A stretch of DNA of 64,000 nt from Forficula auricularia. Its lineage: Eukaryota > Arthropoda > Insecta > Dermaptera > Forficulidae. Below are positions 3,937-63,565 of the stretch, piece by piece. A program made the translations under genes and the position numbers. The stretch spans positions 1,202,929 to 1,266,928 of the forward strand of contig JALMQS010000136.1 in NCBI GenBank assembly GCA_024734495.1, in the 5' to 3' direction. The notes beneath the pieces were generated by a model, which ran no database searches, was not told the DNA's origin, and was given only the letters and a program-made list of their open reading frames with translations. Within the stretch, counting starts at the first letter, position 1. Each line of letters begins with the position of its first letter.

Positions 3937-4146
3937 GATGAAGGAGGAGGTATCAGCCAAAGATGGAATACTGGGTTCAATAAAACACCTTTAATAAGAC
4001 GTTTCGGCCTGAATTTTCTTTGGCCATCTTTAGTCAATTAGGAGTTATACACAAAATGCGGTACACATATGTGATCGAACCAAGCCTTGTCAAAAATAAA
4101 ATTTTTTTTAGCTTCATGCGAATTTATAACGTGCCTGGACCCAAAA
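3937..4146 (-). mobile_element. PLE-A fragment, copy 1
   Basis: About 210 bp that match, in reverse complement, 20838-21050. Shared landmarks are GGTTCAATAAAACACCTTTA, AGTTATACACAAAATGCGG and GGACCCAAAAGTTT. It contains a hammerhead-like core. It abuts an F1 fragment on its right (AATTCCAGCAGAAGACACAC), so it is part of a composite insertion. Confidence 0.75.
3988..4042 (-). ncRNA. Hammerhead-like motif (PLE-A)
   Basis: On the minus strand the order is CTAAAGA, then helix II (GGCC...GGCC), then GAAACGTC. The first box carries G to A at the invariant G5, so this copy should be dead. The copy at 20933-20990 keeps CTGAAGA. Helix I can form between CCTAATTGA and TTATTAAAGG, as in that copy. Confidence 0.6.
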
Positions 4147-4245
4147 GTTTCTGGAATTCCAGCAGAAGACACACTCTTTTATTGTCTCCTTCAACATATA
4201 AAAATTCTGCTACTCTCGCCACAAAAACTTTCAATTTAATTATCA
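4147..4245 (+). mobile_element. F1 PLE 3'-end fragment
   Basis: Matches the tail of family F1: CCAGCAGAAGACACACTC, then TATTGTCTCCTTCAA, then AAAATTCTGCTACTCTCG. The full unit with its ribozyme is at 30462-30629. Confidence 0.7.
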
Positions 4246-4487
4246 TAATATTATTATATTTTGAATGTACAAAATTCAGAATTTATACAAATCCTATTTT
4301 TTGCCAAAACCAAAAAGGATTTCAAAATTGATTGAAAAAGTAAAAGCTTTTCCATAAATGTGTGTAATATGATGATTGTTAGTGGTTTTGGGGTAGAAAT
4401 TTGAATCTTGACAAATTATTGCAGTCTATTAACACAAACATGTTTGCCAAATTTCAGTTCATTATTAACAACCATTCTATAAGTTAT

Positions 4488-4704
4488 TATTATTATTATT
4501 AAATTTATTTATTGTCATCGGGAACAAAGCCTATTTAGACAGCACATCAGTAAAGTGTTAGTAGTGTTGTAAGGGAGCCGAGTTTTAGTCGGAAGAAATT
4601 TTATATGCTCGAACCCGGGCGGGAGGCCCTCTCGCTTGATTGTCGTCATCAACGATGCTGGAGCGGAGGCAGCGCCTTAGCCAGCTCGGCCAACCCGACT
4701 CCCC
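4488..4704 (-). mobile_element. tRNA-derived SINE (S1), copy 1
   Basis: The minus strand starts GGGGAGTCGGGTTGGCCGAG, followed by an A-box-like GGCCGAGCTGGCTAAGGCG and a B-box-like GGTTCGAGC, as in Leu/Ser-type tRNAs, then an unrelated body and an A/T-rich tail with ATT repeats. A 13-bp target duplication TTCTATAAGTTAT flanks it (4475-4487 and 4705-4717). The second copy is at 6290-6515. Confidence 0.88.
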
Positions 4705-4836
4705 TTCTATAAGTTATATAATGATTCGATTTTTTCTCATTTTTTTTTTAATCAAAAGAAGAAAACATTACAAATAGAATTTTCGCCTTCTCGTGGAAAT
4801 ATCCATTTTTTGTTTTTTGAGATTAATTTGAAAGCC

Positions 4837-4990
4837 TTTATAAGGGTAGATTGGAGTATTGTCCTCAGATAATTAATGAAATTGAATGTAGGACTTTTAG
4901 AGAATTAAAGAGTTGGTATAGGGTAGAGTTGAATGAAGGTGGGCCGGTATGTCAAACCAGTCTTATGATTGTATACTCCTTGATGAAGAT
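4837..4990 (+). pseudogene. RTE-type LINE, degraded C-terminal end
   Basis: Conceptual translation with one frameshift gives ...CRTFRELKELV... and ...SNQS, matching the better copy at 48230-48384 (CETFREVKELVWDRAEWRRV, then LVSNQS). The D/E-x-EWRR signature close to the stop is typical of RTE-class reverse transcriptase C-termini. A GATGAAGAT sequence stands where the other copy has a GAT repeat tail. Confidence 0.6.
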
Positions 4991-5880
4991 AATAACACAT
5001 TTCTCGGAGAAATGGAGAATCGTTAAATAGATTGTATAAGAGGTTTACTTACAATATATGGACTAAGAGATTTATTACAAAGGGAATGTACTCATACTAC
5101 AAATTGGAAAAGACCTCAGTAATTGGAGGAAAAACAGGAAAACTTTCCCAAGACTCGGTACGGTCTCCGCAAATTTAGGTTATTTGGCAGTTTTTTTGTC
5201 ATCAATCGGTTTAAGCTAGAGCAAAAATATGCATATTTATTATTAAAAAATTTTCTTTTATCTTTCAGCTCATTAACTTTAACACTTCTAGAACTTTCCG
5301 TAAAGATAATAATTAGATTTCTTTTTTCTAAGTTTTTAAATCTGAATTTCTGAATATAGAAACCTACAAATCTAACCAATCATTCGTTTTGGAAAAAAAT
5401 TTTGCTTCCAATTTTAAATAGGTATATCCATAAATATAGAGGTAGGTACAGATAAAAAAGCATACTTGATAATAATTTTTCTACATATTTGAGACATTTC
5501 TAAACACAAATACGAAATAACAAACACTAAATTCAAGTTGGCCAATATTGACCCTGCCCTGGCTAATCAAACGAGTAATTTTAAAATACATATATCTTTC
5601 ATTAGATTTTTGAAGAAATACATTTGAATATAAATAGTTTTGAAAAAAAAACTATTTTATTTTATTTAATATAGTATAAGTACATTACTTTTATAAAAAC
5701 AATCTCGTGTTAAAATTCTAAACGTTTAGGAAGAAATTTGAAATTTTCCCTTAATCAGTGAAAAATGTAAAAAAAAAGTCATCTTACATAAAGCAACATT
5801 ATTTTGTAAAATTTCTCTTTGATAAAGGGAGAATTTATCCAAAACTTTTGGAATTTTAATAAATGTTTCGAGATTGTTTT
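4991..5880. other. AT-rich stretch, nothing identified
   Basis: No supported coding region or repeat boundary. One perfect TTCTAGAAC palindrome (heat-shock-element-like) lies at 5286-5294. Confidence 0.4.
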
Positions 5881-5998
5881 CATAAAGGAACTATATTTAA
5901 ATTGAAAGTTTCTTTTTGCCGAGAGTAGCAGAATTTTTATAAATTGAAAGAGACAATAGAAGACTGTGTCTTCTGCTGGAAAAATATATTTTTAATTT

Positions 5999-6050
5999 AT
6001 TTATAACGAGACTAGAGTCTCGAGGCCTTTGCCCTCTTCATCAATCTATT
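5999..6050 (-). ncRNA. Hammerhead-like motif (F1), decayed
   Basis: Minus strand: TTGATGA in place of CTGATGA, helix II GAGGGC...GCC, then GAGAC in place of GAAAC. Two invariant core positions are lost, so it is not expected to cleave. Confidence 0.55.
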
Positions 6051-6289
6051 ACAATTGATTCACAGGAATTAATGTATGTTGAAGGAGACAATAAAAGAGT
6101 ATGTACTATATTATGATGGAATTATAAATTTGTAATTTATTTATTTATAATTCCAGCAGTAGACACAGTCTTTAATGTCTCCTTCAATTTATAAAAATTC
6201 TGCTACTCTCGGCAAAAAAACTTTCAACTTGAATTAATGTATGTATCATATCTGTAAGTAACTATTACATACATTAATTCCTGTGAATC

Positions 6290-6515
6290 GGAGTCGGGTT
6301 AGCCGAGCCGGCTAACGCGCTGGCCTCACTTCGGCATCGATCGATTATGACGATGTTGGAGCGGAAGGCCGGGGTTCGATCCTGACTGGCAAATAAAAAT
6401 TTCTACCGGCTAAAAACTCGGCTCCCTCACTAACCCTACTAACACTTTACTTATGTGCTGTCTAAATGGGCTTTGTTCTCGGTGAAAATAAATAAATAAA
6501 AAAATAAAAATAAAA
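6290..6515 (+). mobile_element. tRNA-derived SINE (S1), copy 2
   Basis: Starts GAGTCGGGTTAGCCGAGCC, B box GGGGTTCGATCC, then a body shared with 4488-4704 (GCTGTCTAAATGGGCTTTG) and an (AAATA)n tail. A 14-bp target duplication AATTCCTGTGAATC is present at 6276-6289 and 6516-6529. The target is the F1 PLE, so the SINE inserted after that PLE. Confidence 0.92.
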
Positions 6516-6534
6516 AATTCCTGTGAATCAATTG

Positions 6535-6582
6535 TAATAGATTGATGAAGAGGGATAACCCCCGAAACTATAGTCTCGTTAT
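6535..6582 (+). ncRNA. Hammerhead-like motif (F1)
   Basis: ATTGATGAAGAGGG, loop, CCCCCGAAACTATAGTCTCG. Helix II and the ACUAUAGU helix III with cleavage base C are intact. The first core base C3 is U. Confidence 0.6.
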
Positions 6583-6645
6583 AAATAAATTAAAAATTTA
6601 TTTTTCAAGCAGAAGACAGAATCTTTAATTGTCTCCTTCAGGGTA

Positions 6646-8865: not shown

Positions 8866-8873
8866 CTTATAAA

Positions 8874-10276
8874 TAGAGACCGGATTTTTGTCCAGGGAAA
8901 ACTGCCAAAAAATGCAGTTAAAAATGCTGAAATATGCAAGTAATATGCAGAATACGTTGAAATATGAAAATACCTATATGCAGTAAAAAATGGCAAAATA
9001 AATTTTATTATGCACTAAAAAATTAAAATTGAAGACAAAAAGACAATATTTTGAAGGAGTGCTATGAAAGAAATAAAATGATAAAGTAAGCTATAGACAC
9101 CAAGTTTCATGTATGTACGTTTATTGAGTAAATAATTTCACAAAATTCTCAATATATTTAATATGAAAAATCTTTAAACCAAAAGAAATAATAGTTGCTC
9201 TTGAATAAAATCAACATAATAAATATAATAATAATTAATAGGGATTGCGGGGCTGGTGCAAGGTGAAACATCTTTAATAAAGATAAAAGTAAAAAAATAT
9301 TATATGAAATATTCATTTACTACACAATTATAATTGTGAACTTTCTTGAAGATGAGCTTATAGCTCGAAATATATATATTGAAAAAATTTAATCTTTTAT
9401 TTTTTTAATTTTAATTTGAAACAAGTGACCTAGAAATCTTTGCTCATAGTAAATGGATATTTCATATAATAATTATTTAGTTTTATCTTTAAATATAATA
9501 ATGTTTCAAAAAATGTGATCGAAAAAATACGGGGGGGGGGGGGGAGTAGTTTTATTTAACAGACACGATTTGTATTGTTTTGATTTTTTTATATTAACAA
9601 GCTTTTCTTATTGACGTACACATAATAAACTAATAAAATAATGCAAATATTTGTCCGGCTATAATCTGATCACTACACCAAATTACACAGACTTTCACAT
9701 ACACACATGAGCAACTCAATGGCCAAAATGGGCTATAGTTACCGAAGGGCATTAAAAAATAATAATAAAAATAACAATAAAGAAATAATTAACAAAGGAT
9801 CTAAAAAATAATTAAAATTTGATTGTAATTGTGAATAATTTATGTTTACAAATATTTTTCTAAATTATCTTCAGGTTATTATGTCTACGGTCACTTAAAA
9901 TTGATTTTTACGATGAAAAGGAGCGCTCCACATCCTCAGATGTAATGGGGGCAAATTTAAAGGAACTTTATATATATATATATATATTTCTTCATTTTTT
10001 TTCATTCTTTCTTCGAAAATTTACCTTTAACAAATCTGTATTTGGCGCGAAATAGGCAATATTTGACAAAAAATGCTTCTAATTACTCAAATATGCAATT
10101 TTATGCAATATTACTAAAATATGAAAAACTATGCAATATTACTCAATTATGCAAAAAGATGCACTATAAAATTTAACCCACAGTATCCTAGATGCATGAT
10201 TCGGGTAGATAATTGATCCCCTGGGTCGTATGCGGCGGCAAATAAAATATGCAATTGCATAGGAATCCGGTCTCTA
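8874..10276 (+). mobile_element. Non-autonomous hAT-like element
   Basis: Terminal inverted repeats TAGAGACCGGATT face each other at both ends. The flanking 8-bp duplication is CTTATAAA (8866-8873) and CTTTTAAA (10277-10284), one mismatch; 8 bp is the hAT signature. Both subterminal regions carry many ATATGCA/TATGCAA words (8920-9000; 10080-10260), as expected for transposase-binding subterminal repeats. The interior holds a poly-G run (9531-9544), a (TA)n run and a PLE fragment at 9245-9420. There is no transposase frame. Confidence 0.78.
9341..9390 (+). ncRNA. Hammerhead-like motif (F5), decayed
   Basis: TTGAAGAT, helix II GAGC/GCTC, then GAAATATATATATTG. It follows the F5 plan (compare 46812-46858) but has lost C3 and the usual cleavage base. 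It lies inside the hAT-like element. Confidence 0.45.
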
Positions 10277-10552
10277 CTTTTAAAATAGCTTTCTCTCGCA
10301 GGTTGATCACATATGTGATTTGGAAGTTACCTTCGAGTCTTCTATCTCTTTTTCTTTTCAAATAAAAAATATTTGTGGTCAATCTGTTAAACTTCTGGGA
10401 TTTATATATCGTCGCCTTAAGAGTGTAAACCTGCTAACTCACAACAACGAAATTTTACAGGGGAGAGAAAAAACAAACAACATTTAATATTATTAGATTA
10501 AAAATTCAGTTTATTGGACAAAGTTTTTTTATTGAAGTTCTTCTTCAATTTT

Positions 10553-10591
10553 TGTACAACGTTTCGTCTCTCTCGAGACTTTCTCAAGTAC
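10553..10591 (-). ncRNA. Hammerhead-like motif (F7, left arm)
   Basis: Minus strand: GTAC, TTGAGAAA, helix II GTCTC/GAGAC, GAAACGTT, GTAC. Outer GTAC words pair as helix I. The first box departs from CTGANGA (TTGAGAA), although both arms share it. It is either a variant or a decayed founder. Confidence 0.45.
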
Positions 10592-10715
10592 TGCAAACAA
10601 GAACAAAAATCAATTAGGTGAAAGTCTTCACAAATCAACTAAATATTCAGGTACAACCAAAATCACAAATATCAAAAAAACAACATTACTATTACATAAG
10701 ACTCACCTCAATTGG

Positions 10716-10815
10716 NNNNNNNNNNNNNNNNNNNNNNNNNNNNNNNNNNNNNNNNNNNNNNNNNNNNNNNNNNNNNNNNNNNNNNNNNNNNNNNNNNNNN
10801 NNNNNNNNNNNNNNN
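10716..10815. other. Scaffold gap of 100 N
   Basis: Exactly 100 unknown bases between two inverted arms; a frame that reads across it has no meaning. The true distance is unknown. Confidence 0.99.
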
Positions 10816-10926
10816 AAATCAACTAAATATTCAGGTACAACCAAAATCACAAATATCACAATTGTACCTGAATATTTAGTTGATTTGTGAAGACTTTCAC
10901 CTAATTGATTTTTGTTCTTGTTTGCA

Positions 10927-10964
10927 GTACTTGAGAAAGTCTCGAGAGAGACGAAACGTTGTAC
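10927..10964 (+). ncRNA. Hammerhead-like motif (F7, right arm)
   Basis: The mirror copy of 10553-10591, identical in both boxes: GTACTTGAGAAAGTCTCG, then GAGACGAAACGTTGTAC. Same deviations from the canonical core. Confidence 0.45.
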
Positions 10965-11259
10965 AAAAATTGAAGAAGAACTTCAATAAAAAAACTTTGT
11001 CCAATAAACTGAATTTTTAATCTACTAATTATAATGGACATTAATCAACATTATTTAATATTATTGTTATGGAAAAACTATTTTTCACATTTTTTTCTAC
11101 AACGTAATTTAAAGTAGCAATTTTACTTGGACGATGCTGCATCCCTTTTTCTTTTGAACGGTATTAAAATGTCATATATGATAAAAAATGAATTTAGCAG
11201 GCTTACAGTCTAAGGCCACGATATAGAAATACAAAAATTCCAAATGCCTAAAAAATACT

Positions 11260-13184: not shown

Positions 13185-13640
13185 ATCAAGTATAGGACAA
13201 CCTCAGTGATTTCTCAAAGAGAAACAAAGAAGTTGTTCTCTGCTTGATGCAAATAAATATACACACATATATATCTATATATAGTATATTATTTATTTGT
13301 TGGAGACTATAGTTTCGAAGACTTGGTCTTCATCATCAGTCTATTTTAATTATAAATATTATTTTTCATGGGGTCAATACCGTATGGATATTGAAAATTT
13401 ATAATAATAAATAATATATAATATAAATAATATATATACAGATATATAATTTCGATATATATGTGTGTTATGTTTATTTGCATCAAGCAGAGGACAACCT
13501 CTCTGTTTCTCTTTGTGAATCAACAACTCTGCTACTCTTGACAAAACAAAAACTTTTCAATTAAATCAGTGATTTCTCCTTATGAATAAACAATTCTGCT
13601 ACTCTTGACAAATTAAATCTTTTCAATTATATAAATTTTT
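13185..13640. mobile_element. F2/F3-type PLE fragments
   Basis: Repeats of the ATCAAGCAGAGGACAACCTC block at 13186 (diverged), 13476 and, partly, 13570, with CTCTGCTACTCTTGACAAA after it. A minus-strand ribozyme-like core lies between them at 13301-13346. The arrangement suggests another inverted pair, but I could not fix its ends. Confidence 0.55.
13301..13346 (-). ncRNA. Hammerhead-like motif (F2)
   Basis: Minus strand: TAGACTGATGAT, helix II GAAGAC/GTCTTC, GAAACTATAGTCTCC. The whole core CTGATGA...GAAA is intact, helix III is ACUAUAGU, and the cleavage base is C. Helix I is short (AG/CT plus distal weak pairs). There is one extra base, T, between the core and helix II. Confidence 0.72.
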
Positions 13641-14591: not shown

Positions 14592-15208
14592 AGGGGATGG
14601 TCAAGTATTGTAATCGTGCATGAAAAAAGTGTTTTTTTCCTTCTTTTTTTCGAAATATCTCAAAAACGGCTGAAACTATTTTGAGTAAAAAAATTTGAGC
14701 GAAACCATGCATTTTGCTCTACAAAAAAGCTTAAATAAGTAAACACCGAAAAAATTATATTTTCCGAGATAATAATTGTTTTTTCAAAATGTCTGTTAGT
14801 TAGTCTGTCTGGTTGTTAGTCTGTGTGTTACCAAATTTTTGTGGACGAGCTAGCTCAAAAACTAGTGTGAATATCGAAACCAAATTTCACACGTAGTTTT
14901 GGTCCATTGAGATTAAGAGCTTATTAGATTTTGATGCATATCGACCCAAAATTAAGGGGGGTGGAGGGCGGGGGTTAAAAATTAAAAATCTAGGATATTT
15001 GAGCAAACTCAACCAAATTTTGTATACATAATCAGTGGGACCCCAGAAGTCTAAAAATGCAAAAACTAACCGCATAAAATGGGGGGGAGGGGGGTTAGGG
15101 TCAAAAAATTAAAATCTTGGCCATTTACCAAACTCAACCAAATTTTGTATACATAATCACTGGGACCCCAGAAGTATAAAAATGCAAAAACTAACTCCAC
15201 TCCCTACA
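14592..15208 (+). repeat. Helitron-like interspersed repeat
   Basis: Starts GGTCAAGTATTGTAATCGTG, also seen at 23667-23760. It holds a CTCAAAAACGGCTGAAAC block of the kind found near Helitron 5' ends. Two copies of the AACTCAACCAAATTTTGTAT unit shared with 1925-2120 follow, separated by G-runs. The right end is unclear. Confidence 0.5.
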
Positions 15209-16251: not shown

Positions 16252-16300
16252 TTTAAATCCTGAGGAAGGAGGAAAATATCCCCCGAAACCTCGGTTTCGA
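16252..16300 (+). ncRNA. Hammerhead-like motif (Fcc family)
   Basis: CCTGAGGAAGGAGG, AAAATAT, CCCCCGAAACCTCGG. The core CTGAGGA...GAAA is intact, and helix II is GGAGG/CCCCC with one mismatch. The third helix has diverged (CCUC in place of GUC). The host Fcc unit is split by the F5 dimer at 16315. Confidence 0.62.
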
Positions 16301-16535: not shown

Positions 16536-16598
16536 TTAACTCCTTGATGATGGGCTCGTAACCCGAAATATATATATATATATATATCGAGATAAAAA
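16536..16598 (+). ncRNA. Hammerhead-like motif (F5)
   Basis: CTTGATGAT (one extra T against CTGATGAT), helix II GGG/CCC, GAAA followed by a long (TA)n helix III and C, then GAGATAAAAACTC. The helix III has grown by TA slippage compared with 46812-46858. Confidence 0.6.
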
Positions 16599-16614: not shown

Positions 16615-16836
16615 TATAGTCGTCTTAGAGTGTAAACCTGCTAACTAACAAAATTTAATATTGTTGTGATGGAAAGAAACTATTTTTCACATTTTTTGTT
16701 TCTACAACTTACAATCGTAATTTTAAGTATCAATTTACTTGGACATTGCTGCATCTCTTTTTCCTTCGAACGGTATTAATATGTCATATATGATAAAAAA
16801 TGGAATTAGCAGGTTTATACTCTAAGGCGATGATAT
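16615..16836 (+). mobile_element. MITE family M1, copy 4
   Basis: Left TIR AGTCGTCTTAGAGTGTAAAC, right TIR TTTATACTCTAAGGCGATGA. It sits inside the F5 arm; removing it restores CAAAACATAT...TTTGTTTTATT as in 46860-46890. Confidence 0.82.
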
Positions 16837-17339
16837 TTGTTTTATTTTGTGAAACCTAATTTGAAATCTTACTAAGTGATTATTTAAAACATGTTTCACC
16901 TTGAACCGACATCTAACTCTTTAAAAATGATCAATATTATAAGGGAAAATTTTTTTAATAAATATTATTTCTTGGAAGTAGTCTCTTGTTTATTTCCGGA
17001 CTACTTTCATCCAATCTAGAGGTATTTATTTAATTAATAAAGCAAAGGGCTCTCTTTACTTTATTAATTAATATCATGTTTAACCTAAAACCCAGACCAC
17101 TTTCCCTAAGTAAAAAAAATATTTATTTATTTATTTCTATTTTTGTGACGAATAACTGTTGAAATTTGAAAAATATTTGTTTCTTTATCTAGTATTATTG
17201 TATAGAATAAAATTTATCAATCATAATATTGATTTAAAGCCTTAAAACAATGTAGGTATGTCTATTAATGATTTTCTCAGACTTAGGGCGTTGAAGCTAC
17301 AAACTATATAGAAAAATAATTGAAAGAGTCGTTTGGAGA

Positions 17340-17640: not shown

Positions 17641-17818
17641 TTAATGGAGAATTCAAAATCCAACTGAGCTTGCCGAAATTCATATTTCCATCCCCAAATT
17701 TAAATGATTTTTTATAAACTTTTACCTTATTTTAAGATTTTTTTTGTGGAAAATCCTTTGAAACATATTTTCTTAAATTTTATGGTACCCGTTTCTTAAT
17801 TACTTAAGCATTAATTAA

Positions 17819-18069
17819 ATATCGTCGGCTTGGAATGTAAAGCAACTAACTCCATTTTTTATCATAAATGACATATTAATACCGTTCGAAAGAAAAAGAG
17901 ATGCGGCATCGTCCTAGTAAAACTGCTACTTAAAATTACGAAGTTGTAGAAAAAAAATGTGAAAAATATTTTTTTCCTTAACAACAATATTAAATTTCGT
18001 TTGTTTTTTCTCTCTCCTGTATAATTTACTTGTTTGTGAGTTAGCAGGTTTACTCTCTAATGCGACGAT
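17819..18069 (-). mobile_element. MITE family M1, copy 5
   Basis: Inverted relative to the other copies: starts ATCGTCGGCTTGGAATGTAA and ends GCAGGTTTACTCTCTAATGC on the plus strand. Full length, with both TIRs recognisable. Confidence 0.8.
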
Positions 18070-18550
18070 TTAAAGTTTTTCTCCGTTAAAGTCCTAAGAA
18101 GAGAGCTATTTATTTAATTTTTTTGAACAAAATGTTTTTTTTTTTCAAAATTTAAATTTACAAATTTATTATTTTTACATTCATTTGGGCAACGAGCAAC
18201 ACTCCCTTCTCATGTCCATAATTAAAACAATGTATATAGTATTATTTTTATTATTTTTAATCACTTTTAGATTTTTAATCGTGGAACAATTTTTAAAAAC
18301 CCACGACTTGAGCTATTTATTTAATGAATAAATATTAATAAATCAATAAATTTATTGACATCTCAAATATTATAAGGAATGGAATTCTGATCGTACTTGG
18401 TTGGGGTTTTTTCCTCTGATAGCAATTCCATTTTTTTTTTTTTTTTTTTTTCTGAAATTTCTCAAAAAACATATTCGAGATTTTTTTAATGTTTATTGTA
18501 TTCATTTAAATTACATAAGCATTGATTGAGTATATAACATATATACTTCA

Positions 18551-20287: not shown

Positions 20288-20330
20288 TTAACTGAAGATG
20301 GGTTCGACTAGGCCAGAAACATGCTTTAAC
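20288..20330 (+). ncRNA. Hammerhead-like motif, F6/F5-like, decayed
   Basis: ACTGAAGATGGGTTCGACTA, GGCCAGAAACATG. The core CTGAAGA...GAAA is present; helix II is weakened to GG/CC with mismatches. Confidence 0.45.
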
Positions 20331-20649: not shown

Positions 20650-20837
20650 TAATTATAATAAATCATGAGTTTCCTACATGTGATTCCCTCGTTAATCGAA
20701 TGCAGGTAATTTTTGTCAGATATTAAGTAATAATAATATCTGAATTTATATATTTCTGTGTAAGAAATAGTGAATTTTTAAATATTTTTCTAATTAATAT
20801 ATTAAGTAAATATATTTTGACTTTCATTCTAAAACTT

Positions 20838-21050
20838 TTGGGTCCAGGCACGTTATAAATTCACATGAAGCTAAAAGAATTTTTGACAAGGCTTGGTTCG
20901 ATCACATAAGTGTACCGCATTTTGTGTATAACTCCTAATTGACTGAAGATGGCCAAATAAAATTCAGACCGAAACGTCTTATTAAAGGTGTTTTATTGAA
21001 CCCAGTGATTCCATCTTTGGATGATACCTCCTTCTTCATCTAGTACAGTT
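20838..21050 (+). mobile_element. PLE-A fragment, copy 2
   Basis: The better-preserved partner of 3937-4146, in opposite orientation 17 kb away. It spans CTTTTGGGTCCAGGCACG through CCTCCTTCTTCATCTAGTAC. Confidence 0.75.
20933..20990 (+). ncRNA. Hammerhead-like motif (PLE-A), intact core
   Basis: CCTAATTGA, CTGAAGAT, helix II GGCC/GACC, GAAACGTC, TTATTAAAGG. Helix I can pair TGA/TTA, then AAT/ATT after one bulged base, then CC/GG. Helix III is only AC/GU with no loop, so cleavage would need dimerisation, as is known for PLE hammerheads. Confidence 0.7.
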
Positions 21051-22990: not shown

Positions 22991-23345
22991 CTGTGAATGT
23001 ATTTGGAATTTGGGGACAATCAGAAAGCTGGCTCCGTATGCGGCGAAGGCGGTGTCATGGCGGCGAGAGGGCAACTGGAGGTGTTGGAACTGAGGAGCGC
23101 TGGGTGCGAGGAAATCTTACGAGATCTTGGCGTTGAATCATCAGGGAAGATCTGCCAGGCTGCTGCTCTGTTTGACGGGTCATGGTGGCTCTCGGCTGAG
23201 GCGGCTGCGAGCTGGCTGCTTGCAGGCGTCATAGAATTGGTCTTCATGGCAGCAGGTCCTGGGGAGGCAAAAGAGGCCTCAGATGGTGTTCTTTTGATGG
23301 AGGTGGCCAAAGTGGCTGGGACCAGGGCAAGTTGGGTTGCTGGAT
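22990..23345. other. GC-rich segment of unknown nature, open on both strands
   Basis: A sharply GC-richer block directly upstream of the LINE tail. Plus and minus frames are both open over it: Ala/Gly-rich on plus, Ser/Pro/Ala-rich on minus. No family is recognised. It may be part of the adjacent LINE, or a host exon; the sequence alone does not decide. Confidence 0.3.
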
Positions 23346-23347
23346 CC

Positions 23348-23640
23348 CCACAATTAACACCTGTCAGGTTGGATAAAAGTCGAACAAGCGCTTTCGCCAT
23401 CTCTTTTATCCCTATGACCTCCAGAGACTGGAACTCGCTCCCTGCCACCATCTTTCCCGCCACTTATAACCTTCAGATATTTAAGACCCGTATCCACAGA
23501 TACCTTCGACCCCCGCGCAACCCATAAAATTCTTCTTCTTTTCACGATGGAGGGGCCAACCCAGGCCTTTAGGGGTTGCACCTTTTTGGTGTAACTCCTT
23601 CTCTCATTATTATCATAAAAAAAATAATAATAATAACTTC
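23348..23640 (+). pseudogene. LINE reverse transcriptase, C-terminal end and 3' tail
   Basis: Translation ends SRDWNSLPATIFPATYNLQ, FKTRIHRYLRPPRNP, stop (23525). The R-x-WNSLP motif close to the stop is standard for CR1/Jockey/RTEX-like LINE proteins. About 110 bp of 3' sequence follow, then an ATAATAATAATAA tail. It is 5'-truncated; the upstream GC-rich frame is not reverse transcriptase. Confidence 0.72.
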
Positions 23641-29240: not shown

Positions 29241-29314
29241 AAATGTCAATATTATTGAAGGAGACAATAAAAGAGTGTGTCTTCTACTGGAATTATAAAT
29301 TTTTAATTTATTTA

Positions 29315-29361
29315 TAACAAGACTATAGTTTCGAGAGCTTTGCCTTCTTCATCAGTCTATA
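29315..29361 (-). ncRNA. Hammerhead-like motif (F1)
   Basis: Minus strand: TAGACTGATGAAGAAGGC, AAAGCTCTC, GAAACTATAGTCTTG. The core boxes and helix III are intact; helix II has one mismatch. Confidence 0.7.
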
Positions 29362-29770
29362 CAATTGATTCACAGGAATAAAGATATGAATGGTAAGTGA
29401 GATTTACATCTGGTCTGGGCAAATTATGATTCACAGTTTATACTTGTTTCATTTTTTGGTTGTAGGTGGCAGTATTAGGGTTTTATTTGCGTGGCTATTT
29501 TTAAGATACGGCTTTCCGAAAGTTCGATTTTTCGATTTAAGCATTTTTCTGGTGAGTTATTGCATGATTTTAAGATTTCTAACGATTCGAAGATATTTTT
29601 AGGGAACCGTGTTCTGATCTAATTAATTTAATATTTGATTCGTCTGGAAAACAATGTTTCTCGGAGATTAAATGGCTTCCAATTGCAATTGCAAAAATGA
29701 AACAAGTATTTTAGGTTAAAAATAAAATGAGAGAGTCTTCTGTTTTTTAAATAAAATAATTTTTAATTAT

Positions 29771-29820
29771 TTCTAGAGACTATAGTTTCGAAGGCATTGC
29801 CTTCATCATCAGTCTATCAC
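29771..29820 (-). ncRNA. Hammerhead-like motif (F2, left arm)
   Basis: Minus strand: TAGACTGATGAT, helix II GAAGGC/GCCTTC (6 bp, loop AAT), GAAACTATAGTC, TCTAGAAAT. Helix I UAGA/UCUA. Complete core and cleavage base C. Confidence 0.8.
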
Positions 29821-30228
29821 AAATATTTCAAATTAGTTACAAATTAAGATTTATACATTGAAAATTTTGAAAAATATATAATGTCTTTTTCTTCATGTTT
29901 CTCTTGGGAGATTAGAATATAACTGGAGCAATATCTAAGTTACTCTTTTGTTTAGGCATTTTCTAAAGAGTTTTACCTGAATGAATGGAATGTTTTTAAA
30001 AAAGGGTCATTGATAATTTCTAGTTTTTCATTATCAATGACCCTTTTTTAAAAACATTCCATTCATTCAGGTAAAACTCTTTAGAAAATGCCTAAACAAA
30101 AGAGTAACCCAGATATTGCTCCAGTTATATTCTAATCTCCCAAGAGGAAACATGAAGAAAAAGACATTATATATTTTTCAAAATTTTCAATGTATAAATC
30201 TTAATTTGTAACTAATTTGAAATATTTG

Positions 30229-30279
30229 TGATAGACTGATGATGAAGGCAATGCCTTCGAAACTATAGTCTCTAGAAAT
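30229..30279 (+). ncRNA. Hammerhead-like motif (F2, right arm)
   Basis: Identical to the left-arm copy in both boxes and all three helices: GATAGACTGATGATGAAGGC, then GCCTTCGAAACTATAGTCTC. The best-preserved candidate with 29771-29820. Confidence 0.8.
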
Positions 30280-30474
30280 AATTAAAAATTATTTTATTTA
30301 AAAAACAGAAGACTCTCTCTTTCTATTTTTAACCTAAAATAAAAACAATTCTGTTACCATCGACAGTGAAATCTTTTATTCAACTAATATGAAACAAGTA
30401 TAAACGGTGAATCATAATTTGCCCAGATCACATGTAAATCTCACTTACCATTCATACATTAATTCCTGTGAATC

Positions 30475-30528
30475 AATTGTAATAGACTGATGAAGAGGGC
30501 AAAGCTCTCGAAACTATAGTCTCGTTAT
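30475..30528 (+). ncRNA. Hammerhead-like motif (F1, right arm)
   Basis: ATAGACTGATGAAGAGGGC, AAA, GCTCTCGAAACTATAGTCTC. Helix II GAGGGC/GCUCUC has six pairs with one G-U. Helix III is ACUAUAGU and the cleavage base is C. Helix I is weak (AG/CU). Confidence 0.75.
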
Positions 30529-30649
30529 AAATAAATTAAAAATTTATAATTCCAGCAGAAGACACACTCTTTTATTGTCTACTTCAATTTATAAAAATTC
30601 TGATACTCTCGGCAAAAAAGTTTCAATTTAATGTCAATATTATACCAAC

Positions 30650-38976: not shown

Positions 38977-39025
38977 TAAAACCCTGAATAAGGAGCGAAT
39001 AAAGCTCCGAAACGTCGTTCTTTGA
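38977..39025 (+). ncRNA. Hammerhead-like motif (Fcc)
   Basis: AAAACCCTGAATAAGGAGC, GAATAAA, GCTCCGAAACGTCG. Helix II GGAGC/GCUCC is perfect and GAAACGUC intact; G8 is U. Followed by an AAAAAAGATAG / CTATCTTTTTT hairpin. Confidence 0.6.
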
Positions 39026-39550
39026 ATAAAAAAGATAGTTATAATTATCTATCTTTTTTGAATTTTGAACTGCCTCATTAAAATCCACTTAATTATTTAT
39101 ATATTAAAATTAAGAAATTATAATTATGATAAAAAAATATTCATTCATTATATTTAATTTCATTAGAAGGGCCCGAGGGGTGAACCGCGACCTAATATCG
39201 TGTACACCTACTTCCACTTTCATTTCCACCTAGAAGACAATAGATGAAGGAGCAGTATCTAATGAATTTAATGAATTCCAAAATAATTTCACATAATTAC
39301 AAAGACGTGTACATTATAATTCCAATCGCGGTTAAGCCCTCGATAGGACCTATAGCTGGCTACGATAGCTCAGTCCCAACCACTCTGACAACCTGTAAAA
39401 TTTACTGAGAGCGTACCGAGTTTTAAAAAAAATTGTTTAATTATTCTTCAGATATTTTATGTTATTTTCAAACAATTGACTTTGTTATAATTAAGTAATG
39501 GAGAGGGATTCAGCCAAAGGCTAGCCTCTGCTGAATAAAAACTCCCAATT

Positions 39551-39599
39551 ATGGAAAACGTTTCGGCTTTAATTCAATAATGCCATCATCAGTTCCTAA
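39551..39599 (-). ncRNA. Hammerhead-like motif (F4, left arm)
   Basis: Minus strand: GGAACTGATGATGGC, long loop, GCCGAAACGTT, TTCC. Intact core. Helix I GGAA/UUCC, helix II GGC/GCC, minimal helix III AC/GU, cleavage base U. Confidence 0.7.
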
Positions 39600-39794
39600 G
39601 AGCTGAAAAAGCGATAGAGCACACATGTAAAAATACAATAAAATTTTTTTACAAAAAAAAACCAAAGTTGTTAATTATAAAATTATATCTTACAGTATTA
39701 GAGACACAATTAATTTTATACATAAATTGTACGCAGGCAGAGTTGTTATGGATTTTATCATAATATAAAAAATTATATTAAATATAAAATGGTA

Positions 39795-39842
39795 CTCTCA
39801 CTAGATGATGGCATTATTGAATTAAAGCCGAAACGTTTTCCA
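39795..39842 (+). ncRNA. Hammerhead-like motif (F4, right arm), decayed
   Basis: CTAGATGATGGC, then GCCGAAACGTTTTCC. The first box is disrupted by an inserted or altered base; the rest is as in the left arm. Confidence 0.5.
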
Positions 39843-39956
39843 TAATTGGGAGTTTTTTATTCAGCAGAGGCTACCCATTGGCTGAATCCCTCTCCATTAC
39901 TTAATTATATACATATACAGCCATCAAAATTGTATCAATTGACTTTGTTATAATTA

Positions 39957-43346: not shown

Positions 43347-43821
43347 CAGGGTGGGGCATAAAGTTCTACCACATTTTGAAGAGGTGTACAAAACGAAAAA
43401 AATTAACTAGAAAAAAACTGAATTTATTTTTGAAAAGAACATAAAATACATTTTTTTAAATGTGTTTTAAAAATTACATCACACAAAAAAATTAGTGGGA
43501 GGTCAAAAATTAAAATTCTAGCCCTTTCGACCAAACTCAACGAAATTTTGTATACATATTATATTATGTTGGTCCCCAAAAGGCTAGAAATGGAAAAACT
43601 AACCACCCAAAATGGGGGGATGGTCAAAAATAAAAATTCTAGCCCTTTCGACCAAACTCAACCAAATTTTGTATACATAGTTTGGTCGAAAGGGCTAGAA
43701 TTTTTATTTTTGACCATCCCCCCATTTTGGCTTTTCAAAAATAAATTCAGTTTTTTTCTAGTTAATTTTTTTCATTTTTTATACCTCTTCAAAATGTGGT
43801 AGATCTTTATGCCCCACCCTG
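43347..43821. mobile_element. Tc1/mariner-like foldback MITE
   Basis: TIRs of about 85 bp begin CAGGGTGGGGCATAAAG, flanked by TA at 43345-43346 and 43822-43823. The interior holds two copies of the ~70-bp unit AACTCAACCAAATTTTGTAT with TAGCCCTTTCGACCAAACTC, one partly inverted. No transposase frame. Confidence 0.78.
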
Positions 43822-46400: not shown

Positions 46401-46745
46401 AAAATCCTTGGAAATTGTTCTTATTATTTTTCTCAACGTTTCGAGTATTTCTTAACACGATAGGTTTCGAATGAATTCAATACTTCAATTCTTCTAATAT
46501 AATATCACTTATTCCTCAGATTCCATAGTTAACAATTTCACGGGATTTTCTTTATAAATTTAATTCTACAACTAACTGCAATTTGAACTTTTATAATGTA
46601 TGATGCATTTTTTATTTTGTATATATTAAATTCAATTTTCACATAAATTATAAAAATAAAAAATATAAAAATTATAAACAATAATATATAATATATTTTT
46701 CTAGGTGGGTTTTCACAAATAAAACAAATATATGTTTTGAGTTTT

Positions 46746-46793
46746 TATCTCGATATATATTTCGGGTTATGAGCCCATCATCAGAAGTTACAA
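46746..46793 (-). ncRNA. Hammerhead-like motif (F5, left arm)
   Basis: Minus strand: CTGATGATGGGCTCATAACC, CGAAATATATATCGAGAT. The core is complete. Helix II GGG/CCC, helix III AUA/UAU, cleavage base C. Confidence 0.72.
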
Positions 46794-46811
46794 AAGAAAA
46801 CTGTTTTCTTT

Positions 46812-46858
46812 GTAGCTCCTGATGATGGGCTCATAACCCGAAATATATATCGAGATAA
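46812..46858 (+). ncRNA. Hammerhead-like motif (F5, right arm)
   Basis: TAGCTC, CTGATGAT, GGGCTCATAACCC, GAAATATATATC, GAGATA. Helix I pairs CTC/GAG plus TA/TA around one G-A mismatch. Complete core. Confidence 0.75.
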
Positions 46859-46999
46859 AACTCAAAACATATATTTGTTTTATTTGTGAAACCCACCTAG
46901 AAAAATATATTTTTACTTATTATCAATTAAAATGTTTCACCTAGAACCGACACCAAACTCTTTAAAGATTATAAAAATTATAACTTACAAATAAAATTT

Positions 47000-51901: not shown

Positions 51902-52126
51902 TATAACTAATTAACGCCCAATTTCAACAACCAAACATAAGCTAAGATTACACTTAAATTAACCTTAAATCAACTTTTAAGGTATATAGAACTTAGTCTC
52001 TGAATGAGAACATGTAGCAGACATTTAATTTCCTTTATTTTTATTTAAAATAAAATAGAATTAAATTGTTGGAGATTTTTAAATCAGTGAATGTAAGAGC
52101 CTAAGATACGTATAGTTAGATTCTAT

Positions 52127-52366
52127 ATGGCCCTCAATCTTCCCTTAAGCCTCGATTACCCCTTCGCAGATAATGTAGATTCCAATATAACTAAGGCATT
52201 CGATAGATCATTTGTTTCTAAGATATCAAGAGATTGGAATTCTCTTCCTGTTTCCATTTACGCTCCAGATACAATCCTAAATCCGTCAATGCTAAATTCT
52301 ATGAATTTCTTAAATTCTATTACAACCCCTGGATTCTTCCCAACCCTATATTTCTTTTCTAATTAA
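52127..52366 (+). pseudogene. LINE C-terminal fragment
   Basis: Translation contains KISRDWNSLPVSIYAP, the same R-DWNSLP motif as 23348-23640 but a different family. Upstream AFDRSFVS is compatible with a LINE C-terminus. The remaining 79-codon frame diverges into low-similarity sequence. 5'-truncated. Confidence 0.55.
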
Positions 52367-53345: not shown

Positions 53346-53400
53346 TTTATTTACTAAACAGTTTCGCTCCCCACTAATTGACCATCTTCAGTAGGTAATA
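53346..53400 (-). ncRNA. Hammerhead-like motif (F10)
   Basis: Minus strand: TACTGAAGATGGTC, loop, GGGAGCGAAACTGTT, TAGTAAATAAA. CTGAAGA and GAAAC are intact; helix II is weakened compared with 7486-7540. Helix I pairs TACT/AGTA. Confidence 0.6.
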
Positions 53401-54501: not shown

Positions 54502-54548
54502 ATTTTGAACCGACGTTTCGGAGGATCTTCCTTCATTAGGGTTAATGA
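54502..54548 (-). ncRNA. Hammerhead-like motif (Fcc)
   Basis: Minus strand: TTAACCCTAATGAAGGAAGA, TCCTCCGAAACGTCGGTTC. Helix I AACC/GGTT, cleavage base C. The first box is CTAATGA (G5 to A). Confidence 0.6.
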
Positions 54549-60439: not shown

Positions 60440-60640
60440 TCTCAATTTCGAAACCCGTCACTGTCTCTGTCTGTCTGTATTTCGGTCGATGGAGTCCCCA
60501 AACAATATCCCTGGGACTCCGAGTCAATTTTCCTGTAGGATAAAAGGGACCTCGAGCATGTCCTTGTCCATGTCTTCCCTCTGGGAATGCTGAGGGACGT
60601 CCATCTCTTTGCGGACACTTGTCCACCCAGTAAGTTACTT
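60440..60640. other. GC-elevated unique segment, open on the minus strand
   Basis: Minus-strand frame of 68 codons (CPQRDGRPSAFPEGRHGQGH...) with no known family. On the plus strand the block ends TGTCCACCCA|GTAAGT, a good donor context, so it could be a non-coding or untranslated exon. Unresolved. Confidence 0.25.
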
Positions 60641-60680
60641 AAATTCTACAAATAAAAGACTTTAAATGTCTTTTTTATTC

Positions 60681-60905
60681 GATATTCTTTTATAAATAAT
60701 GAATGGAAGATGGATTGAATAATGGAATTGGAATAATTATCGGAAAAGAGGTTTTTTTTCTTTAATTAGTTTTTTCCTCTTATTAAAAACAAGGACTAAA
60801 AGATGATCAAGGACACTCGATGGTGGAGAAGTAATCTCCGGAATCGAAGCTCAAAAACAATGTATGCATAAATTCATGTAAAATTATTGGTTTAATAAAA
60901 TTTAT
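60681..60905 (+). mobile_element. F9 PLE fragment with decayed hammerhead
   Basis: Matches 63716-63910 in reverse complement (TGATCAAGGACA, GATGGTGGAGAAGTAA, GAAGCTCAAA). Ribozyme-like part at 60809-60860: TCGATGGT, helix II GGAGA/TCTCC, GGAATCG, AAGCTC. Both boxes are mutated. Confidence 0.5.
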
Positions 60906-61187
60906 AATATATATATATATATATTTGAATAGATTATTAACAAAACCTTTGAATTCTATTACTTCTTCTAATATAAATATAGCTGCTACCACCTACCCAC
61001 CTAAGCAACATTCTTATTAAAAAGAAAAGAAATAGACATAAAAAATCTAAATGTTTATGTAAATCATTATAAATATTAAATTTAAAAAAATTCACTGAAA
61101 TTAATTGAAAGTAATGCAAGGCAATCCAAGAAAAAATATACACATATCAAATAAGGTGTAATTTATTGGAATCCTTCCTCCTTTTCT

Positions 61188-61237
61188 TTCAAACCTTCGT
61201 TTCGGAGGATTCTTCCCTCCTTCTTCAGGGTTTCAAG
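61188..61237 (-). ncRNA. Hammerhead-like motif (Fcc)
   Basis: Minus strand: CTTGAAACC, CTGAAGAA, GGAGGGAAGAATCCTCC, GAAACGAAGGTTTGAA. Intact core and helix II GGAGG/CCUCC. Helix I TTGAAACC/GGTTTGAA has seven pairs. The cleavage dinucleotide is GA instead of UC. Confidence 0.68.
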
Positions 61238-61559
61238 TGGTCAAGCTGCCTTCCATTACTATCAAGTTCTACCAGTCCGTCTCTCTCCAGAGAAAATTTC
61301 TTTGCAAATAAATTCACTGTAATAATTTATAAAAGTCATTATATAAATTGATGTACCTCAAAGGGTTAGGCATTAATGGTGAGATTTATGTGGAACGTTA
61401 GATAAATACTTCTATAGCGCCCTAGATATTCTACATAGTAAAAAACTTATATAATCAGTTATACCTATGTATGGTGTATCTTTATTTGTATTAAGAAGAG
61501 AAACCTTGGTTGATTTTTTTTTTTTGGTAGTAATATCGATACGTTTTGTATTTTGCATG

Positions 61560-61960
61560 GGAGAGAAAGAGACCGATGGTTAGCTCACTTTTATTGCCAT
61601 CTCGCCGATACTTGAACTTTCCTCTTTTGCCCTCGCAGAGGTTAAAATGTTGGTGATAAAAATCCCTTGGATCCAGGTGATGAGTCCCCGGTTGTACCTC
61701 GTCTCCATTTGCAAGTTAAATGTTACCGGCGGCGGAGAAAGAAAAAAGGCGCATTCCTTTTTATCTGACTCTGGATGAGTCCCTCGGGACAAACGGCATC
61801 CCACTACCCACGCAACCCCCTTTTCTTATTGCTTTCGCCCTCTGTCTCGTAAAAACTCCTCAGAAATCATTGCGACTAACATTTAACAGGGCTAGCAAAA
61901 ACAACAACAACATCGTCTGCAATTTATTAATATAGCCAACACCTCGTTGAGATCAACGGA
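61560..61960. other. GC-elevated unique segment
   Basis: Unique, with GTTACCGGCGGCGGAG. Short frames on both strands, no protein recognised. Candidate regulatory DNA. Confidence 0.3.
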
Positions 61961-62150
61961 TAGAGAGAGAAAGGAACAACAACAGGGCATAAAACAACCC
62001 TTATAGATATTTTTTATTTTCAAATTCAAAAAAAAAATGTAATTTATTACATAATTCAAAGGATAAATCTGCTTTGATTTATATCTCTAATTACAAATAG
62101 ATTTACCAGAACAATAATTTATTATAATAATTTTATTTTAATTATTGACA

Positions 62151-62290
62151 TCTCATATATATAGAATCGGTTTCTCGAGAACGGCTCTAACGATTTGGAT
62201 GACATTCAAGGGCTAGGGGGTTTTTGATTCAGATTTTGATCTATCACGGTCTCATATTCGTCTAAATTGTTTTTGATGGGTTTTTTGTTA
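62151..62290 (+). mobile_element. Helitron-like 5' end fragment
   Basis: TCTCATATATATAGAATCGG, then CTCGAGAACGGCTCTAACGA, then TTTGGATGACATTC, a pattern common at Helitron 5' ends. The 3' end is not found. Confidence 0.5.
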
Positions 62291-62617
62291 ATTGAAATAA
62301 TTATTCACAGGTGGTTGTTTGAATAAAAATTTATAATTAAATTTTTTCATTTTTCTTTCAATAAAATTAATTGTTTTATTTTTATTTTAAATTCCAATAA
62401 TAGATCAATACAGATATTATTATATATTAGAATTTGACAATTTAATTAATTAAAGGTATTTTTCTATAAAATAATTTATTAGAATATTAATTTCATTCTC
62501 TTAAAAAATCTGATAATTCGAAGGGGTACTCCTTCTTCAGAGCCTCGGTGTATATTAATATTATTAATTTGAAAGTTTATATTAGAAAAATAAGGACACG
62601 TTTTTATGTATGACTTT

Positions 62618-62674
62618 TTTATTTATCAACCAACGTTTCGTCGACTTTGCCGACTTCTTCAGGGCTTCAAATAG
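62618..62674 (-). ncRNA. Hammerhead-like motif (F8, unit 1)
   Basis: Minus strand: ATTTGAAGCC, CTGAAGAA, GTCGGCAAAGTCGAC, GAAACGTT, GGTTGATAAAT. Helix I AGCC/GGUU plus AUUU/AAAU around an internal loop, helix II GUCG/CGAC, minimal helix III AC/GU. Complete core. Confidence 0.78.
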
Positions 62675-62984
62675 TCATGTCACACATTCAAAATTTATAA
62701 TTAAATTTTTTCATTTTTTCCTTTCAATAAAATTAATTATGTATTTTATTTAAATTCCAATAATAGATCAATACAGATATTATTATATATTAGAATTTGA
62801 CAATTTAATTAATTAAAGGTATTTTTCTATAAAATAATTTATTAGAATATTAATTTCATTCTCTTAAAAAATCTGATAATTCGAAGGGTACTCCTTCTTC
62901 AGAGCCTCGGTGTATATTAATATTATTAATTTGAAAGTTTTTGTATGGAAAAAATAAGGACACGTTTTTATGTATGACTTTTTA

Positions 62985-63035
62985 TTATCAACAATAGCTT
63001 GTTTGACTTTTGCCGACTTTTTTCAAGTTTTCAAA
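62985..63035 (-). ncRNA. Hammerhead-like motif (F8, unit 2), decayed
   Basis: Minus strand: CTTGAAAAAAGTCGGCAAAA, GTCAAACAAGC. Same positions as unit 1, but both core boxes are lost. Confidence 0.5.
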
Positions 63036-63565
63036 TAGTCATGTCACATATTTCGTCTAAATTTTCTTATTATCTTCGTTACTTATAGAAGATCATTAGA
63101 ACACAATTTCAAAAAAAAATATTTGGACATTCACAAAAAAACAATTTTTTTTCTTTTTTATTTTTTTATATTAACAATTTCATTAGATATAAAAAACAGA
63201 AATAACATATATAGAATGAGGCAACGTTGTTTAGAATTTGAGATTTCTTTATGTAAGGATCAAAAAGGAGAAAAATATTCTATTCTGGTTCATAAACAGG
63301 GTTGCCTCATTCTATATATATATGTAATTTCTGTTTTATATCTATTGAAATTGTTAATATAAAAAAAAAGAAAGAAAAATTGTTTTTCTGAATGTGTCAA
63401 ATATTTTTTTGAAATTTGTGTTCTGATGGTTTTCAATGGTAACGAAGATAATAAGAAAATTTAGAGGAATGTGTGACATGACTATTTGAAGCCCCGAAGA
63501 AGTCGGCAAAGTCGACGAAACGTTGGTTGATAAATAAAAATCACACATAAAAAACATGTCCTTAT
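63036..63565. mobile_element. F8 PLE inverted dimer
   Basis: The left arm 63036-63225 is the inverse of 63296-63480 (ATTTCGTCTAAATTTTCTTA; AGATATAAAAAACAGAAATA; GAATGAGGCAAC on both sides). The loop is ~70 bp. The right arm continues into an F8 ribozyme core at 63482-63536. Shares its left outer part with the tandem dimer. Confidence 0.8.
63482..63536 (+). ncRNA. Hammerhead-like motif (F8, right arm)
   Basis: ATTTGAAGCC, CCGAAGAA, GTCGGCAAAGTCGAC, GAAACGTT, GGTTGATAAAT. U4 is C (CCGAAGA); all helices as in 62618-62674. Confidence 0.65.

Follow-up and report, generated by a model that had tools for sequence, protein, structure and literature searches.

A short motif recurs on both strands of a 64,000-nt stretch of the Forficula auricularia genome (the window), and the question it raises is whether this motif is a ribozyme and what kind of element carries it. 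The preliminary description had proposed about 30 hammerhead-like motifs in roughly ten diverged lineages of Penelope-like elements (PLEs) or retrozymes. Our analysis leaves us highly confident that the motifs represent minimal type I hammerhead ribozymes (HHRs) within the terminal repeats (pLTRs) of PLEs, mostly of short non-autonomous or 5'-truncated copies, in a genome that also holds autonomous PLEs. As judged from its sequence, the small RNA motif is probably self-cleaving. Minimal type I hammerheads of PLEs were described by Cervera & de la Pena (2014) and by Lunse, Weinberg & Breaker (2017), as reported in PMC7761336 and PMC6155905. According to these accounts, they share with our sites the core, a tiny or missing helix III, the pLTR location, a dispersal in thousands of copies over animal genomes, and a proposed action as dimers. 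Hence this is a known kind of element, present in this genome in extreme abundance.

The helix-anchored pattern CTGANGAWGN{6,24}CGAAAY matched the window 13 times, compared with 0.03 matches in shuffled sequence, so that the recurrence on both strands lies far above chance, as had been claimed. A looser pattern, CTGANGAN{4,34}GAAA, yielded 27 matches (mean 4.37, maximum 10 in 100 shuffles). When an exact core and a helix II of at least three pairs were required, nine sites remained, and all nine carried helix II at offset +1, i.e., with one additional A or T between CTGANGA and the helix (shuffle mean at this offset 0.03; 60 shuffles); at offsets -1, 0, 2, 3 and 4 the window contained none. 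Allowing up to one core mismatch gave 16 sites at +1 against 0.44 (25 shuffles), and five at the other offsets together (1, 2, 1, 1 and 0; shuffle means of 0.04-0.6 each). An exact core at offset 0 occurred neither in the window nor in a 60-kb genome sample, the latter containing one exact core at offset 2. The extra A or T, which is absent from the preliminary description, would set our well-formed sites apart from the PLE minimal hammerheads, the published consensus of which may nevertheless share it. The CUGANGA ... GAAA core around helix II is that of the minimal type I of the PLE kind. By hand, we listed 24 motif sites in the window, several of them decayed, which by eye fall into roughly ten to thirteen sequence families. 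Two further relics, at 54515 and 28895, emerged from covariance-model rows and were then read by eye. Thus, the earlier count of about 30 was a mild overcount, defensible if relics are included, while roughly ten families was a fair estimate and each of the ten coordinates singled out as best is at most 30 bases away from a motif core.

We trained a covariance model on 11 sequences, six of them derived from the window; the E values of individual HHRs given below stem from this model. At E<=10 it returned 55 window rows, comprising 12 at E<0.01 (including the six training members and a twin of one of them), four more at E<0.06, two at E=0.18 and 37 that are relics or noise. The Rfam hammerhead models returned no window row at gathering cut-offs and were absent from the 16 rows at E<=10, presumably because they do not fit an extra-base core with almost no helix III. 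Weak miRNA rows in the same Rfam scan look, in our judgement, like long inverted repeats.

Helix II covaries. Among 70 distinct genome cores, 66 pair at the second and 65 at the third position (shuffled-partner means 39.7 and 33.4), and 95% of helix II cells are paired, compared with 27-45% in slid controls; further pair types, one covariation measure, were not above shuffles (283/500). A helix I of at least two pairs around a non-G cleavage base was obtained for 23 of 25 sites, from a script biased towards solutions of this kind and with no chance control; the sites at 16544 and 38984 gave no pairs. Several of the helix I solutions are weak (two pairs), with a poor fit for family D. In well-fitting sites, the helix III segment is short. 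At 11 of the 25 sites it forms a perfect tiny palindrome (no chance control), as expected if two copies pair, and in the other 14 it is decayed or reads, e.g., ACGA or ACTGT. These palindromes do not figure in the preliminary description. In folding predictions of nine units, the monomers do not form helix III, and the dimers adopt mostly extended helix I + II duplexes and no clean dimeric hammerheads.

Many cores in the window are decayed, and the motif might accordingly be a relic whose fold is no longer active and whose abundance merely tracks PLE copy number. The Poseidon/PAc PLE of Anolis carolinensis lends some weight to this reading: in the account of PMC11167929, its ribozyme is dispensable for insertion in vitro and inactive without protein, and no RNA ends were observed at the cleavage site, which leaves it uncertain whether the ribozyme contributes to transposition. 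Against a relic stand the compensatory helix II changes across families and the ten exact cores in the 60-kb genome sample, a density similar to that of the window, which together point to the fold having been kept as the families diverged. We therefore regard a mere relic as unlikely.

What carries these hammerheads is best seen at the five head-to-head pairs of the window. Four of them are flanked by target-site duplications (TSDs) of 13-21 bp, whereas duplications of at least 13 bp arose in 5 of 4000 random placements, and in each of these four one arm is longer by a tail of 35-50 nt. Element A1 (29242..30643; 14-bp TSD at 29242-29255 and 30630-30643) carries one HHR in its inverted arm (29328-29355, minus strand) and one in its direct arm (30487-30514, plus strand); only the right arm bears a tail, of 43 nt. 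Nested within it lies element A2 (29697..30401; 13-bp TSD at 29697-29709 and 30389-30401), with HHRs at 29785-29812 (minus) and 30236-30263 (plus) and a right-side tail of 50 nt. Element E (39473..39956; 21-bp TSD at 39473-39493 and 39936-39956) contains an HHR at 39560-39592 (minus), a damaged one at 39801-39834 (plus) and a right-side 35-nt tail. In element B (46664..46983; 14-bp TSD at 46664-46677 and 46970-46983), the HHRs at 46759-46784 (minus) and 46819-46844 (plus) both score E 0.18, and the right arm is 44 nt longer. The exception is the family C complex (62326..63592), for which no TSD was found. It consists of a 363-bp tandem pair and an inverted arm, with HHRs at 62635-62662 (minus) and 63494-63521 (plus) and relics at 62515-62540 and 62878-62902 (minus).

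Further sites lie outside these pairs. Family D is represented by a terminal repeat at 20832..21045 (plus; HHR 20943-20975, E 0.041, then a 29-nt tail; 9-bp TSD candidate), with at least 58 genome matches (40 of 1998 candidates scored), and by another at 3932..4150 (minus; 93% to the former), whose HHR at 4001-4033 has one core mismatch and E 1. Family A1 recurs as a decayed inverted copy at 5895..6236 (HHR relic 6017-6044, minus, E 6.8e-6) and as a copy at 6516..6640 (plus; 90% to 30461-30586; HHR relic 6542-6568, E 0.0023). Three HHRs are of family C type: 61199..61228 (minus), with a GGAGG/CCTCC helix II, a 5-bp helix I and E 3.8e-5 while outside the training set; 16260..16289 (plus, E 3.9e-4); and 38984..39013 (plus, E 0.023), with one core mismatch (CTGAATA). 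Relics comprise a family B site with a TTGATGA core (16544..16569, plus; 79% to family B; E 9.1), a site with a GAGC/GCTC helix II and a palindromic ATATATATAT helix III segment (9346..9371, plus; E 1.2), one with a mismatched helix II (53361..53391, minus; E 0.052), and one with related intact cores in the genome sample (L057) at 20292..20320 (plus; E 0.49).

Coding sequence connects these repeats to PLEs. Elsewhere in the genome, an open frame of 858 aa contains RVT_1 (1.6e-16) and GIY-YIG (8e-6) domains, and its homologues include arthropod proteins. Open reverse transcriptase (RT) + GIY-YIG frames adjoin an identical ribozyme core, which is present three times at the tandem locus of the 858-aa frame (L045). 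The same core is found in the window within a terminal-repeat copy of this autonomous family (13207..13568, minus; HHR 13312-13339), of which 13287-13400 is 95% identical to a further genome locus (L042). With 150 of 3423 candidates scored, at least 150 GIY-YIG matches in the genome exceed the cut-off. The window itself holds fragments only and no full-length PLE ORF, and a Pfam search with its two longest plus-strand frames returned nothing. Element A1 retains coding remnants: a 5'-truncated PLE (29253..29687, minus) comprising the ORF end and a terminal repeat matches a genome locus (L044) over 467 columns at 78% and, by tblastn, aa 823-853 of the 858-aa frame (E 1.4e-4). The A1 tail, in turn, can be aligned with the PLE ORF start. 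In family A2, as read from the sequence, an ATG formed in the core reaches a stop after eight codons. The window copies are non-autonomous or truncated. As described in PMC11167929, the Anolis PLE likewise combines an RT + GIY-YIG ORF with a pLTR hammerhead (stems I and II only); its ORF begins at hammerhead stem II, whereas the first ATG of our long frame lies 232 nt from ribozyme base C3.

TSDs and tails extend beyond the window. In family D, TSD candidates of 11 bp or longer occur at 9 of 16 loci (no chance control; two of the nine are the same insertion), and a tail lies beside exactly one arm at all ten two-armed loci as judged by eye, although two of these loci seem to represent one insertion. 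Of ten divergent pairs examined from the ORF-bearing family and others, four carry TSDs of 11 bp or more, with arm ends at 134-139 and 181-184 nt, and six do not. Inverted head-to-head pLTRs, a 30-50 nt tail on one arm and a TSD, the features by which PLEs are recognized, are therefore all found. Together with the tail matching the ORF start, the coding remnants in the window and the RT + GIY-YIG frames beside the core, these signs form evidence independent of the ribozyme and establish a PLE origin, in agreement with the proposal of PLE lineages that share a ribozyme. Penelope of Adineta vaga (PMC3846280) is similarly described with head-to-head inverted pLTRs and an optional tail on one arm (31 bp); its TSDs measure 8-10 bp, compared with 11-21 bp here, and its copy number is far below that in our genome. 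The main text there nowhere uses the word 'hammerhead', and no paper surfaced when the literature was searched for hammerhead ribozyme, Penelope, self-cleavage and head-to-head in combination.

The preliminary description had left room for retrozymes, i.e., small non-LTR tandem repeats of metazoans that contain canonical type I hammerheads and spread via circular RNA. Metazoan retrozymes, as portrayed in PMC7229834, resemble our units in their type I hammerheads, short non-coding units and similar size, and PLE enzymes are suggested as their mobilizers (PMC7229834, PMC7761336). The 363-bp tandem pair of family C also carries motifs, and at 62326-63052 is the sole motif-bearing tandem duplication seen in the window; no tandem units bearing canonical type I hammerheads were found. 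In contrast to the tandem arrays and canonical helices of retrozymes, our units have a minimal helix III, PLE tails and coding remnants, and are mostly arranged head to head. A scripted count of neighbours closer than 1 kb gave 24 divergent, one same-strand and no convergent pairs for family A (among 100 matches listed of 28,352), and 18, four and three, respectively, for all families (among 100 listed of 133,853), the listed matches coming from contigs C1-C4. Within the window, the corresponding numbers are five, six and one, the order being mixed by nesting and tandem copies. Since head-to-head pairs prevail in both genome listings, retrozymes fit less well than PLEs, and we consider them improbable, even more so than a relic.

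Across the 1.06-Gb genome, the exact core matched 133,853 times, compared with 129 matches of the reversed control. Chance matches in AT-rich DNA, for which the empty Rfam result and the 4.37 chance matches per window of the loosest pattern could be cited, are refuted by this reversed-pattern control and by the 13 helix-anchored matches against 0.03 in shuffles, and have practically no probability left. A search of viral contigs with the family A core gave 12 loci with no convincing helix II, which we took as chance. The genome count corresponds to about 126 exact cores per Mb, or roughly one per 8 kb, a difference in abundance from the PLE minimal hammerheads. The density called unusual is hence typical of this genome rather than special to the window, and what is extreme is the abundance in the genome as a whole. 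In PMC7229834, a coral is credited with over 6000 motifs, minimal or canonical, and the axolotl with 126,247 of type I; our count exceeds both of these, the two highest printed figures that we encountered, albeit against other counting methods and short of a systematic survey of published counts. Tentatively, the earwig genome may rank among the most hammerhead-dense known.

How might such copies arise? We propose that the element RNA bears the ribozyme near its pLTR end and that the element RT would begin internally, downstream of C3, either at an inner site (99-139 nt, depending on the family) or at an outer one (134-184 nt). Both nicked target strands would be extended, and the two cDNAs would join head to head, leaving an 11-21 bp TSD and a tail on one arm. 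The Anolis PLE is reported to use two internal RT start sites, which account for its 30-40 bp tail, with both strands cleaved and extended (PMC11167929). Units would be released from read-through or tandem transcripts by the ribozyme, probably acting as a dimer; we propose dimers because the helix III segment is too short alone yet often palindromic.

What the ribozyme does in PLE transposition is called 'still a mystery' in PMC7761336. Here, a single minimal core occurs in over 130,000 exact copies in the same genome as the enzyme reading frames, offering one system in which cleavage, dimer action and this function can be tested. Young head-to-head copies may conceivably, in a reading that we hold with reserve, follow a strict rule in which the inner RT start is used for one arm and the outer start for the other, resulting in exactly one tail. 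If true, both target strands would be primed in one, obligately asymmetric reaction, and the 'optional' tail would instead mark a paired, two-ended form of target-primed reverse transcription.

The preliminary description had reported that hammerhead-like motifs abound on both strands of the window, and helix-anchored counts far above those of shuffles confirmed this; each of the ten positions it had ranked as best is no more than 30 bases away from a core. In this AT-rich window (GC 0.27-0.35 in 4-kb steps), a loose hammerhead pattern matched 27 times versus 4.37 by chance. Requiring the exact core and helix II yielded nine sites (shuffles 0.03), all of them at offset +1, i.e. with one extra base between CTGANGA and helix II, and none at five other offsets. 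Allowing up to one mismatch gave 16 sites at offset +1 (shuffles 0.44) and five at the other offsets together, and the anchored pattern CTGANGAWGN{6,24}CGAAAY was found 13 times versus 0.03 by chance. An Rfam scan of the window returned no hammerhead. The covariance-model scan that the preliminary description had called for was carried out with a model built from 11 sequences and recovered window members beyond its training set, among them those at 61199-61228 (3.8e-5), 16260-16289 (3.9e-4) and 39560-39592 (0.0078), but families B and D scored weakly (0.041 to 9.1) and relics did not separate from noise.

We examined the extra base among the 100 genome matches listed for the anchored pattern. 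At this base, for which the pattern admits only A or T, 55 matches have A and 45 have T; in the latter, the T and the final base of the core fall within an ATG. These matches comprise 70 distinct cores, in which the first pair of helix II is set by the pattern itself. Positions two, three and four are paired in 66, 65 and 47 of the 70 cores, as compared to means of 39.7, 33.4 and 26.5 and maxima of 48, 46 and 36 in 1000 shuffles of the partners. An alignment of 11 rows, 10 of them distinct, has 95% of its helix II cells paired, falling to 27-45% once the partner is slid, and four of six helix II pairs show two-sided changes. Judged by five measures against 500 shuffles, three were reached by none and one by 17, while the measure for further pair types was reached by 283. 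The helix III segment is perfectly palindromic in 11 of 25 sites (ACGT, ACTATAGT, ATATATAT or ATATATATAT). Judging from its sequence, such a segment could form a few pairs at most within one molecule and a full helix between two. This arrangement corresponds to the dimer idea already published for hammerheads of Penelope-like elements (PLEs), as far as the excerpt of PMC7761336 and the title under which it cites Lunse et al. 2017 go.

Self-comparison of the window revealed that inverted arms surround many of the motifs head to head. Four of the five head-to-head pairs carry target-site duplications (TSDs), namely A1 (14 bp), A2 nested inside A1 (13 bp), B (14 bp) and E (21 bp); none was found at pair C. 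In a chance control, 13 bp was reached by 5 of 4000 random placements. Measured from the core base C3, one arm of A1, A2, B and E ends at 99-107 nt and the other at 134-153 nt, a difference of 35-50 nt. The extra stretch, or tail, of A1 aligns to the sequence with which the PLE reading frame begins, the place expected for a PLE tail from the available part of PMC3846280. A1 also contains a 5'-truncated PLE piece (467 columns, 78% to a copy elsewhere in the genome, L044; 31 residues at 64.5%, E 1.4e-4).

Copies elsewhere in the 1.06-Gb assembly were inspected for the same features. Family D, represented in the window by the terminal repeats 3932..4150 and 20832..21045, has at least 58 genome matches (40 of 1998 candidates scored). 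Of 16 family D loci, 9 are flanked by TSD candidates of 11 bp or more, a set without chance control in which L015 and L018 represent a single insertion counted twice. Both are tailless single-arm copies flanked by an 11-bp TSD; because the same insertion lies on two contigs, the assembly may hold both haplotypes. In 10 of 10 two-armed family D loci the tail adjoins exactly one arm, although L021 and L022 appear to be a single insertion and L020 has a shorter tail. Ten divergent pairs from loci L029-L060 were also inspected: TSDs of 11 bp or more flank four, whose arms end at 134-139 and 181-184 nt, two have TSDs of 9-10 bp and uneven distances, and four, one of them at a locus end, lack a TSD of at least 9 bp. 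GIY-YIG gave at least 150 genome matches over cut-off (150 of 3423 candidates scored). Locus L045 contains 2909-bp tandem units, in which two frames are 858 aa long and a third is shorter. Both RVT_1 and GIY-YIG exceed their own cut-offs there, and the three ribozyme cores of L045 equal the core at 13312-13339 of the window. A second lineage, L039, has a 397-aa open frame and a core different from that of L045, with GIY-YIG over cut-off and RVT_1 at 27.1 bits, below the cut-off of 29.6. Protein relatives numbered 112 at E<=0.001 (7994 scored), among them named proteins from arthropods (Parnassius, Diabrotica, Bemisia, Folsomia) and from other animals, e.g. Xenopus, Hydra and flukes.

Our data establish that the terminal repeats of PLEs carry a hammerhead core that is conserved and covaries. 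They also establish TSD-flanked insertions, one-sided tails and open PLE frames, in support of the PLE interpretation of the preliminary description. We envisage that the ribozyme would cleave, probably as dimers or with PLE protein, and that both nicked strands would be extended from two RNA start sites, giving rise to head-to-head copies. The Anolis PLE enzyme likewise cleaves and extends both strands and uses two start sites of reverse transcription, according to the accessible part of PMC11167929. As the start site did not differ between strands there, that assay, as excerpted, does not support a strict one-tail rule, and since ribozyme mutants still inserted, any role of the ribozyme in the life cycle is putative. 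The excerpt of PMC3846280 suggests self-priming as the origin of the head-to-head form; our data accord with either route, although the unequal arm ends fit two separate starts better.

The window contains further repeats. An inverted pair at 6290-6519 and 4481-4702 (77% alike) has tRNA-like boxes (GGTTAGCCGAGCCGGCTAACGCG...GGGTTCGATCC) and presumably resembles a tRNA-derived SINE; ARAGORN detected no tRNA in the window. Frames at 22997-23527 and 52097-52363 carry SRDWNSLP-type motifs, which we take to resemble those at the C-termini of reverse transcriptases from LINEs; a Pfam scan of the first alone gave no match. The perfect 289-bp inverted repeat 26305-26593/26756-27044 has no hammerhead and is likely a young hairpin or MITE-like element, while the inverted repeat 10489-10656/10862-11029 (99%) flanks a run of N, and this assembly gap may hide the centre of a palindrome. 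A common repeat of ~120 bp with G-rich heads forms tandem pairs at 1878-2119, 14958-15195 and 43488-43679 and is also present in locus L038. Pieces of ~60-245 bp from a dispersed family (83-94% identity, both strands) lie at 2683-3179, 10405-11228, 16643-16855 and 17813-18072; no hammerhead was seen in this family.

Orientation was scored for neighbours within 1 kb. The first 100 matches listed for family A gave 24 divergent, one same-strand and no convergent pairs, and the first 100 listed for all families together 18, four and three; the 24 window sites gave five, six and one. Genome-wide, the anchored pattern matched 133,853 times versus 129 for its reverse, and family A alone 28,352 times versus 0. 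Six 10-kb stretches picked by position held 10 exact and three one-mismatch motifs at offset +1; by the same rule the window holds nine exact and seven more. With a genome average of 8.1 anchored matches per 64 kb against 13 in the window, and with these sampled stretches, the window's density is therefore somewhat above that of its own genome, yet not outside it. The density that the preliminary description had called unusual does not set the window apart. Compared with the counts in the available part of PMC7229834, the number for the entire genome is high. Taken together, the hammerhead-bearing PLEs of F. auricularia are ordinary in kind and extreme in number.
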